A stretch of DNA of 64,000 bases, taken from Acidobacteriaceae bacterium. Lineage in GTDB: Bacteria; Acidobacteriota; Terriglobia; Terriglobales; Acidobacteriaceae. The stretch is from positions 3,508 through 67,507 of the forward strand of contig PMHV01000017.1 in assembly GCA_003156805.1 (NCBI GenBank). The letters are read 5' to 3'. Each line of letters begins with the position of its first letter. Position 1 is the stretch's first letter. A program made the position numbers and the translations under genes. Below the pieces are notes generated by a model. It was not told the origin of the DNA and made no database searches. It saw only the letters and a program-made list of their open reading frames with translations. Positions 60,529 to 64,000 of this stretch are shown here, piece by piece.

Positions 60529-61722
60529 TTATCTCTCTACGGCCATAGCCACGGCGTTGCCTCCGCCCAGGCATAACGCGGCAATTCCACGCTTCACATC
60601 GCGGCGAATCATTTCATAGATCAGCGTCACCAGCACACGCGCGCCACTGGCTCCGATGGGATGCCCGATGGCAACCGCTCCGCCATTCACATTTACTTTG
60701 CCAGTATCGAGGCCAAGCTCGCGCATTACCCCCAGCGCTTGCACCGAGAAAGCTTCGTTGAGTTCGTAGAGGTCCACGTCTTCGTTCTTCCAGCCCGTCT
60801 TCTCCCAGATTTTCTTGACCGCGTCGACCGGGGCCATCATGACCCACTGCGGTTCGACGCCGCTGGTGGCCTGGGCCACAATCCTCACCATCGTTGACGC
60901 GCCAAGTTCTTTCGCGCGATGTGCGCTGGTCACAACCACGGCTGCGGCTCCGTCATTTACTCCCGGAGCGTTGCCGGCCGTGACGGTGCCATCTTTCTTG
61001 AAGGCCGGCTTCAGTGCGCGCAGAACCTCGATGGTGGTGTCTTCGCGTGGAGACTCATCTTTCGCGAACCAGGCCGGAGGTTCGCCTTTCTTCTTCGCCG
61101 GAATCTCCATCGGGACAATCTGCGATTTGAACCGGCACTCCTTGATTGCGGCCACAGCTTTGCGGTGAGAGTTGACGGCGAACTCATCCTGCTCTTGCCG
61201 GGTAATGCCGTACTTCTCAGCGACGTTCTCGCCGGTGATGCCCATGTGATAGTCGTTGTAGATATCCCAGAGGCCGTCGTTCACCATGGAGTCGACAACC
61301 TGCGCGTTGCCCAGGCGATATCCCTTGCGAGCTTGCGGCAAAAGATAAGGCGCGTTGGTCATCGATTCCATGCCGCCGGCGACGACGATGGAACTGTTGC
61401 CGGTTTGGATTGCTTGCGCGGCGAGCGCGACTGCTTTCAGTCCGGAGCCACAAACCTTGTTGATTGTCATGGCACCTGTCGCCGGAGACAATCCCCCGAA
61501 GATTGCCGCCTGCCGCGCCGGATTTTGGCCGAGCCCGGCAGAGATGACGTTGCCCATGATGCACTCATCGACCTGCTCCGCGGTCAATCCCGCGCGCTTC
61601 ACCGCCTCGCGCACCACCACCGCACCCAACTGCGGGGCGCTGAAGTCAGAGAGACTTCCCTGAAATTTTCCTACCGGCGTACGACAACCGGAAATGATGA
61701 CAACATCATCGAAACCCGCCAT
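60529..61722 (-). CDS. Acetyl-CoA acetyltransferase (thiolase)
   Basis: Degradative or biosynthetic type II thiolase, 397 residues. Catalytic residues: nucleophile Cys in [14 protein letters not shown] (near 90), His in [14 protein letters not shown], and acid/base Cys in [15 protein letters not shown]-terminal [20 protein letters not shown] is standard. It converts two acetyl-CoA to acetoacetyl-CoA or the reverse. Single gene in a minus-strand setting; no PHB or beta-oxidation neighbours. Confidence 0.95.
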
Positions 61723-62002
61723 ATATCAAGCTCCCGCAAAGAATTTGCGTCTCTGATTCATTCCTGATTATAGATGCGCGGCAGGAAGAAAAGGCTGAAA
61801 CTTGTGCAGTGAATCGGTGGCCGCTTGCAGTCGGGCCGGCTCTCGCGCTCCGCGCTCACGGCGCGGAGATAAACTGTTTGCCGGTGTTCGCAAGTCGCTG
61901 CAATCGATTTTCTCAGCGCGACAATGCTCAGAATCGTTCTTCACCGAACGTCTTCGGTGACTTTGGTACAACACCGCATGCATCTTCGCATTCATTTTTT
62001 TC
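61723..62002. other. Intergenic region upstream of the short promoter-terminator unit
   Basis: About 280 bases between the thiolase start and the promoter at 62003. Nothing convincing is encoded. A stretch of eight T bases lies just before the -35 box and may act as an upstream (UP) element. Confidence 0.4.
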
Positions 62003-62031
62003 TTGACATCAATTTTCATTGACTCTATACA
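62003..62031 (+). promoter_or_regulatory. Near-consensus sigma70 promoter
   Basis: TTGACA (62003-62008), a 17-base spacer and TATACA (62026-62031), followed by AT; an A/T-rich stretch lies directly upstream. This is the best promoter in the window and would start transcription near 62038. Confidence 0.8.
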
Positions 62032-62097
62032 ATCAATCAGTTGCAACAAAAGACCGTTGCAGATTTTCCATGAAGAATGGAAGGGAGAATAGAACCA

Positions 62098-62139
62098 ATG
62101 GCAACGAAGAAAAAGGCAAAAAAGAAAAAGAAGCACTAA
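62098..62139 (+). CDS. Candidate lysine-rich micro-protein (13 aa)
   Basis: ATG 62098 encodes MATKKKAKKKKKH, preceded by GGAAGGGAG 10 bases away. Nine of the 13 residues are Lys or His. It lies between a strong promoter and a strong terminator. Such a basic peptide could bind nucleic acid or the ribosome. Translation is not proven. Confidence 0.5.
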   Translation: MATKKKAKKKKKH

Positions 62140-62163
62140 GTGAAGTTCAGTACGAAGTCAGAA

Positions 62164-62194
62164 GGGGACGCAGAATGCGTCCCCTAAGTTTTTT
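62164..62194 (+). terminator. Strong intrinsic terminator
   Basis: GGGGACGCA and TGCGTCCCC form a perfect 9-bp stem with loop GAA, followed by TAAGTTTTTT. It ends the short unit begun at 62003. Confidence 0.9.
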
Positions 62195-62224
62195 GGGCGG
62201 AGAAACTTCTTCAGAGGTTCTGGA

Positions 62225-64000
62225 TCAGTTGTGCGTTGTTTTTCCACGCTTGACGGGATTCGGAATGCGCTTTTCTTGGGCCGGGCATAATCCACGGAAT
62301 GCACAGAAATTGCAGTGGTAGTTCACGTTCGGCTCAAAGTTTCCCTCCGCGATGCCGCGCGCCGCAGATTCCACTCGCTTCCGCGCCTCGGCCAGTTGAA
62401 ACTCGGTGCGTTTCGTGAACACGGGCACGTTCTCTTCCAGGTTGTGAAATGCCAGCGCCCCCACGCGATATCCCCACTTCTCCAGCGCCGCTATCGCATA
62501 AATAGAAAGCTGCAGGCTTTCGTCGGCGTCTTCCTGGGATCTCGCCTTGCCGGTCTTGTAGTCGACGATCACAACGCTGCCGTCGGCGGCGCGGTCAATT
62601 CGGTCGATTCGCCCGGACACTTTGGTGCCGGCAATCTGCACGTCAAACCATTCCTCGGTGTGCAAAACCTCTGGCACCGGAACTGAGCGCACCGCAGCCA
62701 GGAAGTCCTGCAACTGAGCGAGGCCTTGCTCCTCATACAACTCGAACTGATAGCGATCCTGAATCCCTGCCGCGCCCAGGTCTGCGCGAAATAATTCCAG
62801 TAACTCAGCATCGGTTTTCGGCCGCCCCTGCCGTACTGAGTCGTAATACGTGCGCAGCACGCGGTGCATGGCGGCGCCGTACTGCATCGCTGCAGGAACT
62901 TCGCGTGACATCTTCCACTCGCGTTCGAGCTTGAATTGCAAAGGGCAGCGCTCATAGGTATCGACCGCGGACGCGCTCAAACGCGCACTCAATCCCTCGA
63001 CTGGCGGAAGCGCGAGCCACTCGGCCGTGCGGGATTCCGGCGGATGCGCCGGATCGGCTGCGGCTGCAAGCTCGATGAGTTCGGGCTGCGAGGGAAGCGC
63101 CAGCCGCGACCTCAACCAAGGCTGCAGGCTGGAATCCTTCATCAGTTCGCGCATCAGGCCGGGCGGCGTTTTGTCCTTGCCTATTCCCTGCTTGCCATAG
63201 AGATGGAGTGAATCTTTGGCGCGGGTCATGGCCACGTAGAAAAGCCGGCGCTCCTCCTGTTCATACAAGGTCTTGTCGTCAATGGCCGCCGCGGAGTCGG
63301 GATCGCGCAACTCCATGGGAAATTCCACAAGTGTCTCTCGATAACCAACCGGGAAGGAACCGCTGGTCGCGCGCAAGATGAAAACATGATCAAACTCGAG
63401 CCCCTTGGCCGTGTGTACCGTCATCAAGCGGACCGCGTCTTGACTCTCGCCGGCAGTCATCGGAATCACACCCCCCGCTTCGCGAAAATAGCCGAGGTAT
63501 TCAACCAACTCGTTCATCTCGCCGGTCCGGGTGATGGCTTTATCTTTGTCCGCCCATTCGCCCACAAACTTCAGAGCGGCCCGCACAATGGCCGAGGTTG
63601 TGTCGAGCGCAAACTCTTTGGCGATGGTCTCCAGGGCTTTGCGCCCTTTGGCCTTCTTTCTGTCGATCTCTTCTCGCGCCTTGATCACAGTCTGGAGAAC
63701 TTCGTGGCCACCATCGACGCCGTCAAGCACCGAGGCGAGAGGAATAACCTGGCCGTCTCGTGAATCCTTCGCAATGGTGCGGAGCGCCGTGCGAAGCTGC
63801 TCGCCGTCTACGTTGAAGTTTGGTAACGCAGCCGCCCGAAACAGGCTCGCATCGTCGCCCATGTCCACCACTACGGCAAGGCACGCGAACAAGTCGCGCA
63901 CCTCCGGGGTGTCGCTCACATCCATGCTCTCGATCGAGAAGGGGATTTTTTCTTTCGCCAGTTCCTGGACCACATCGTCCCGATGACCATGCAAGCGATA
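62225..64000 (-). CDS. UvrD-like helicase/PD-(D/E)XK Fe-S nuclease (AddA/RecB-like), C-terminal part
   Basis: Minus-strand gene entering the window at 64000, frame open, so the N-terminal helicase motifs are outside. Visible are the UvrD C-terminal motifs: MTVHTAKGLEFDHVFILRAT (motif V) and YEQEERRLFYVAMTRAKDSL (motif VI), then a RecB-type nuclease domain with VSGRIDRIDRAADGSVVIVD and YKTGK. Cysteines ERCPLQFKLEREW and HCNFCAFRGLCP fit the Fe-S staple of AddB/RecB-type nucleases. The protein takes part in double-strand-break processing. About 591 residues are in the window. Confidence 0.9.
   Translation of the reverse strand, partial: YRLHGHRDDVVQELAKEKIPFSIESMDVSDTPEVRDLFACLAVVVDMGDDASLFRAAALPNFNVDGEQLRTALRTIAKDSRDGQVIPLASVLDGVDGGHEVLQTVIKAREEIDRKKAKGRKALETIAKEFALDTTSAIVRAALKFVGEWADKDKAITRTGEMNELVEYLGYFREAGGVIPMTAGESQDAVRLMTVHTAKGLEFDHVFILRATSGSFPVGYRETLVEFPMELRDPDSAAAIDDKTLYEQEERRLFYVAMTRAKDSLHLYGKQGIGKDKTPPGLMRELMKDSSLQPWLRSRLALPSQPELIELAAAADPAHPPESRTAEWLALPPVEGLSARLSASAVDTYERCPLQFKLEREWKMSREVPAAMQYGAAMHRVLRTYYDSVRQGRPKTDAELLELFRADLGAAGIQDRYQFELYEEQGLAQLQDFLAAVRSVPVPEVLHTEEWFDVQIAGTKVSGRIDRIDRAADGSVVIVDYKTGKARSQEDADESLQLSIYAIAALEKWGYRVGALAFHNLEENVPVFTKRTEFQLAEARKRVESAARGIAEGNFEPNVNYHCNFCAFRGLCPAQEKRIPNPVKRGKTTHN

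Follow-up and report, generated by a model that had tools for sequence, protein, structure and literature searches.

Several bacterial proteins carry lysine-rich stretches resembling histone H1. The C-terminal tails of AlgP and PhaF from Pseudomonas consist of KPAA repeats and are rich in lysine, alanine and proline; the tail of AlgP is disordered and has been compared to histone H1, and DNA binding is reported for fragments of it (PMC9239181). AlgP itself comprises a 124-residue N-terminal domain and a 195-residue tail. Chlamydial Hc2 (PF07382) and the DUF6496 proteins (PF20106) have lysine/alanine repeats within chains of 100–240 residues. Small size and high basicity are also found in the ribosomal proteins bS22, bL37, bTHX and eL41, which are often unannotated, use much arginine and keep their residue positions. 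Finally, dual-function small RNAs with a short open reading frame (ORF), of the SgrS and RNAIII type, place a structured RNA and a small ORF between a promoter and a terminator within a short unit.

The locus described here lies in a 64,000-nucleotide stretch of an Acidobacteriaceae genome (contig PMHV01000017.1, hereafter the window). Positions 61994–62195 hold a complete small gene with a promoter, two 5′ hairpins, a ribosome-binding site, an ORF and an intrinsic terminator. Its product, like the 118 distinct related peptides considered below, has the H1/AlgP type of composition (rich in lysine, alanine and proline, almost without acidic residues) and resembles Hc2 and DUF6496 in its lysine and alanine, but the ORFs hold nothing except the tail, at 11–30 residues and in a gene of its own. 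The extra domain of the H1/AlgP type is absent, as is the C-terminal GKKVTSRKQAIAIGLSEARKAGKK-type domain of the longer DUF6496 proteins. By the profiles of the H1-like families themselves the microprotein falls outside them; it would work like their tail alone. It shares with the small ribosomal proteins its size, basicity and lack of annotation, but not their arginine, and it has no profile match. The candidate RNA differs from the SgrS and RNAIII type in having no known target or pairing site, and most lineages keep the ORF together with the RNA. DUF6496 H1-like proteins of 104–131 residues, found in several family members (L354–L362), start with MATKKA-KK as the microprotein does.

Searches with five longer relatives gave no match in Pfam at E-values up to 10, the HC2-type H1 profile included; relatives of 21–30 residues did not match COX24_C (PF08213), and the microprotein had no match in NCBIfam. 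In Rfam nothing reached the gathering score, the two far-below-threshold matches (E-values up to 5) being to unrelated eukaryotic or viral families. No earlier description of the unit was found in the open literature, a scope that leaves out most subscription journals. The unit is real, conserved and absent from the family libraries searched (Pfam, NCBIfam and Rfam). Because gene callers usually pass over ORFs this short, a gene that much of a major class of soil bacteria has kept can stay unseen.

Architecture of the locus

The features of the region are as follows.

60529–61722, minus strand: flanking gene of presumed thiolase (acetyl-CoA acetyltransferase type), divergent, outside the unit; from ORF and translation
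61958–61969, no strand assigned: conserved element TGACTTTGGTAC, some 34 bases upstream of the −35 hexamer; kept across the genus and in many of the family's genera
61994–62008, plus strand: T-tract and −35 hexamer (ATTTTTTTCTTGACA); CTTGAC invariant in 66 family units
62026–62031, plus strand: −10 element TATACA after a 17-base spacer; TATA invariant in 66 units
62042–62061, plus strand: 5′ leader hairpin 1 (TGCAAC...GTTGCA); compensatory changes, covariation above 500 of 500 shuffles and all slid versions
62068–62080, plus strand: 5′ leader hairpin 2 (CCAT...ATGG); 98% of cells paired, double changes
62081–62092, plus strand: ribosome-binding site AAGGGAGAATAG; run AGGGAGAAT invariant in 67 units
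62098–62139, plus strand: microprotein ORF (MATKKKAKKKKKH); seven of seven variable sites synonymous in 29 genus members, 118 related peptides
62163–62195, plus strand: intrinsic terminator GGGGACGC...GCGTCCCCTAAGTTTTTT; from a scan; the stem sequence persists throughout the family and shows paired changes
62225–63994, minus strand: flanking gene of presumed UvrD/AddA-type helicase-nuclease, convergent, outside the unit; from ORF and translation

Read directly from the window, the −35 hexamer is TTGACA at 62003–62008. The −10 element matches TATAAT at four of six positions, and for this reason the promoter is absent from a scan for the sigma-70 consensus. We regard this miss as an artefact of how the consensus is defined and give conservation precedence, given that TTGAC and TATA are both invariant among 66 aligned relatives of the unit. 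The transcript is predicted to start near 62038 and to be about 157 nt long, with the AAGGGAG motif of the ribosome-binding site at 62081–62087. The ORF runs from ATG at 62098 to TAA at 62139 (13 codons and a stop) and encodes the 13-residue MATKKKAKKKKKH. A second in-frame ATG lies upstream in the window at 62077; as it is out of frame in some relatives, the longer ORF was rejected and 62098 was taken as the start. The terminator stem (62163–62185) has 10 pairs, of which 7 are GC, and leads into six consecutive T. The sequence-only reading of this DNA had already proposed a 157-base unit bounded by a promoter with a 17-base spacer and by a strong terminator, with a lysine-rich peptide of 13 residues encoded by its only ORF, and each of these elements was recovered.

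The flanking products were named from sequence: we take the upstream one to be a thiolase of the acetyl-CoA acetyltransferase type and the downstream one, whose gene may continue past the window, to be a UvrD/AddA-type helicase-nuclease. The arrangement with thiolase upstream and UvrD/AddA-type gene downstream recurs beside most family units with long enough flanks; the thiolase is a neighbour of most family units and the UvrD/AddA-type gene of many. A mobile-element or plasmid gene was rejected on the conserved locus and the lack of a plasmid match.

Distribution in the genus, family and class

When 61 genomes were searched at the DNA level, 36 of the 37 from the genus contained the unit at 83–92% identity, and the matches broke off close to the unit's two ends. 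This conservation excludes a chance origin. The sequence-only reading had judged the unit too well formed for chance and had named close relatives as the place to check, and conservation extends beyond them to family and class.

Matches by blastn, some of them partial, were obtained across the family in 123 of 150 genomes and in 70 of 79 genera. A covariance model was built from promoter and leader and applied to two overlapping samples of family genomes; it matched 35 of 35 in the first and 57 of 58 in the second, and some of the family members searched were themselves in the model. Members with the unit include Edaphobacter, Granulicella, Terracidiphilus and Acidobacterium. In a sample of the class, the model also matched 73 genomes from other families at E-values up to 0.5, more weakly and in most cases once per genome. 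All 34 of the other-family loci inspected, which come from at least eight families, hold a lysine-rich short ORF preceded by a TTGAC promoter and a purine-rich ribosome-binding site. Examples of the class peptides are MAAKKKAKKKR, MKNATKKAAKKKAAPKKKKK, MPTKKAPAKKKPAAKKKK, MAKKPAKKAAKKKK and MKKSATKKAPKKKAAKKKKR. The sequences show the lysine-rich gene to be old; it has mostly been inherited vertically, and family and class have kept it very widely.

An exact-peptide pattern search of the phylum returned the genus only, because the peptides of other genera differ in sequence; the covariance model was used instead. Weak model matches in other classes of the phylum (L157, L159 and L162) and a second match in one genome (L337 in G053) have no related lysine ORF and were taken as chance.

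Selection on the peptide

Seven positions of the ORF vary among the 29 genus members with the 13-codon form, and all seven changes are synonymous. The rough probability of this by chance is 2 × 10⁻⁵ when variable sites are treated as independent single changes. One genus member lacks exactly one lysine codon. The 118 distinct peptides gathered across the class contain 53% lysine, 30% alanine, 7% threonine and 3% proline, with arginine almost absent. They mostly end in KK[K/H/R], whereas length and spacing vary freely; lengths as scanned are 11–39 residues, the longest including alternative upstream starts, and otherwise 11–30. In the window's genus the peptide has a net charge of about +8 and no large hydrophobic residue beyond the start.

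The same peptide is encoded a second time. An unlinked gene for MATKKKAKKKK(K)H is present in all 20 genus genomes whose second locus was fetched, and its promoter, leader, GGAGG ribosome-binding site and terminator are all unrelated to those of the first gene. Its different leader is conserved, and it has its own terminator before the next gene. In most genomes it sits between a MerR-type gene and a hydantoinase-B-type gene; at L002 (1501–1539, minus strand), as in L032–L050, the hydantoinase-B-type gene on one side is divergent and the MerR-type regulator gene lies on the other. That two unrelated frames surround the same peptide argues that the peptide itself matters. Together, the synonymous-only change, the second gene and the constant composition of the 118 peptides show, at the level of sequence, that selection acts on the peptide, which in most lineages is the selected product. 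The earlier suggestion of a micro-protein is thus strongly supported.

The leader RNA and units without the ORF

Across 67 aligned leaders, 10 of the 14 pairs of hairpins 1 and 2 show double changes, including a C-G to G-C change in hairpin 2 in 17 of the 67 sequences. The covariation score, the number of paired cells and the double-change counts are above those of all 500 shuffles and of every slid version. Judged by this covariation, the leader RNA is also under selection. In the minimum-energy fold the GTTGC arm of hairpin 1 can pair with GCAAC of the ORF start; this alternative pairing is not kept where the hairpin has changed to GCAGC/GCTGC, and we therefore claim no switch.

In two genera (g22 and g24) and one further genome (of g20) the ATG-lysine ORF is gone, while the promoter, hairpin 1, the GGGAG motif and the terminator are kept (loci L148, L149, L152–L156, L158 and L321–L325). 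Hairpin 1 forms in these units as GTTGC/GCAAC, GCTGC/GCAGC or GTCGC/GCGGC, and in g24 both arms of the terminator have changed together. In several of the ORF-less RNAs a paired state is predicted even for the GGGAG motif, as would be expected once translation has been lost. Non-exhaustive pattern searches recognised no compensating microprotein in these genomes. Loss of the ORF with retention of promoter, covarying hairpin, GGGAG motif and terminator suggests that the unit has a second, RNA-level role, and these units, from few lineages, are the best hint of it. The small RNA that the sequence-only reading had offered as an alternative to a micro-protein may stand as an additional role of the unit rather than in place of the peptide.

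In the Granulicella/Edaphobacter-type clade a GGCAA motif recurs between stop codon and terminator (3′ UTRs of L086, L088, L089, L091–L094, L096, L111 and L112), and it also occurs in ORF-less units.

Possible functions of the peptide and the RNA

The most likely function of the microprotein, by analogy, is that of an H1-tail-like polycation. The presumed housekeeping sigma-factor promoter with its T-tract, the two 5′ hairpins, the ribosome-binding site and the strong terminator would give high constitutive synthesis, an expression anatomy that can be likened to that of E. coli lpp. By its composition the peptide would stay unfolded and bind polyanions by charge, chiefly the DNA of the nucleoid, acting much as the tail of a bacterial histone-H1-like protein would if it were detached from any folded domain. 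That the locus is a one-gene unit for an abundant, unfolded polycation acting chiefly on nucleoid DNA seems to us about evenly balanced between right and wrong. Binding to nucleic acids or ribosomes is something we infer from composition only, and charge alone cannot tell DNA from rRNA, polyphosphate or membrane lipid, which counts against a DNA-binding reading. The peptide is also far shorter than known H1-like proteins, and it is dispensable in the two genera and the one further genome where the ORF has been lost.

A main rival is an unannotated ribosome-associated protein like bS22, bL37, bTHX or eukaryotic eL41, which would fill an rRNA pocket and be synthesised in parallel with ribosomes. 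In other phyla, very basic ribosomal proteins of tiny size came to light only through cryo-EM, and bS22 of Borrelia, with 61% lysine plus arginine, had been unannotated (PMC10618245). The lysine-rich gene looks strongly and constitutively expressed, and no COX24_C (bS22-type) match was obtained in 12 Terriglobia genomes, so the bS22 slot may be free, although this search is weak, as only one of 14 control genomes gave a match. Against the ribosomal reading, it is only composition that is kept here, with length and spacing free to vary and hardly any arginine, and ribosomal genes are linked to neither locus; we consider it unlikely. Neutralising or tethering polyphosphate granules, a role reported for AlgP, is less probable still: AlgP, with a tail of like composition, localises to such granules (PMC9239181), but no polyphosphate or granule genes were seen beside either locus. 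Hardly tenable is a leader peptide of an attenuator, whether lysine-sensing or ribosome-stalling, for a downstream gene. Lysine runs can slow ribosomes, and the hairpin and terminator look attenuator-like, but the next gene is convergent rather than co-directional and is kept so in relatives, and the second gene has a different leader and its own terminator ahead of the next gene. The attenuator was rejected on gene order.

A regulatory function of the transcript through its hairpins, the AGGGAGAAT motif and, in some genera, the GGCAA repeats is compatible with the nucleoid polycation, and we entertain it tentatively. In its favour are the ORF-less units with their compensated hairpin, jointly changed terminator arms and predicted pairing of GGGAG, and the GGCAA motifs in ORF-less RNAs and in 3′ UTRs of related genera. 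However, the 3′ region of the window's own genus has no GGCAA repeats, the leader hairpins may only stabilise the mRNA, lineages with ORF-less units are few, and no Rfam family matches. Combining the two roles, the unit might be a class-wide housekeeping locus of the Terriglobia in which a stand-alone, domain-free H1-like tail peptide is made from an RNA that also has a role independent of the peptide; some genera would therefore have been able to drop the peptide while retaining the RNA. This combined picture we hold to be doubtful.

Were a free lysine-alanine peptide produced in large amounts, it would count as a chromatin or ribosome protein of an unusually minimal kind, and the role of a bare H1-type tail in the cell would become directly testable. 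The lineages that keep the RNA without the ORF offer a natural experiment separating peptide from RNA function.

The TGACTTTGGTAC element upstream of the promoter could be part of the divergent thiolase gene. Across the genus and in many of the family's genera, the stretch between this element and the promoter is variable in sequence. In much of the genus, TGACTTTGGTAC (61958–61969) and GTACGAAGTCA (62150–62160, after the ORF) form an imperfect inverted pair.
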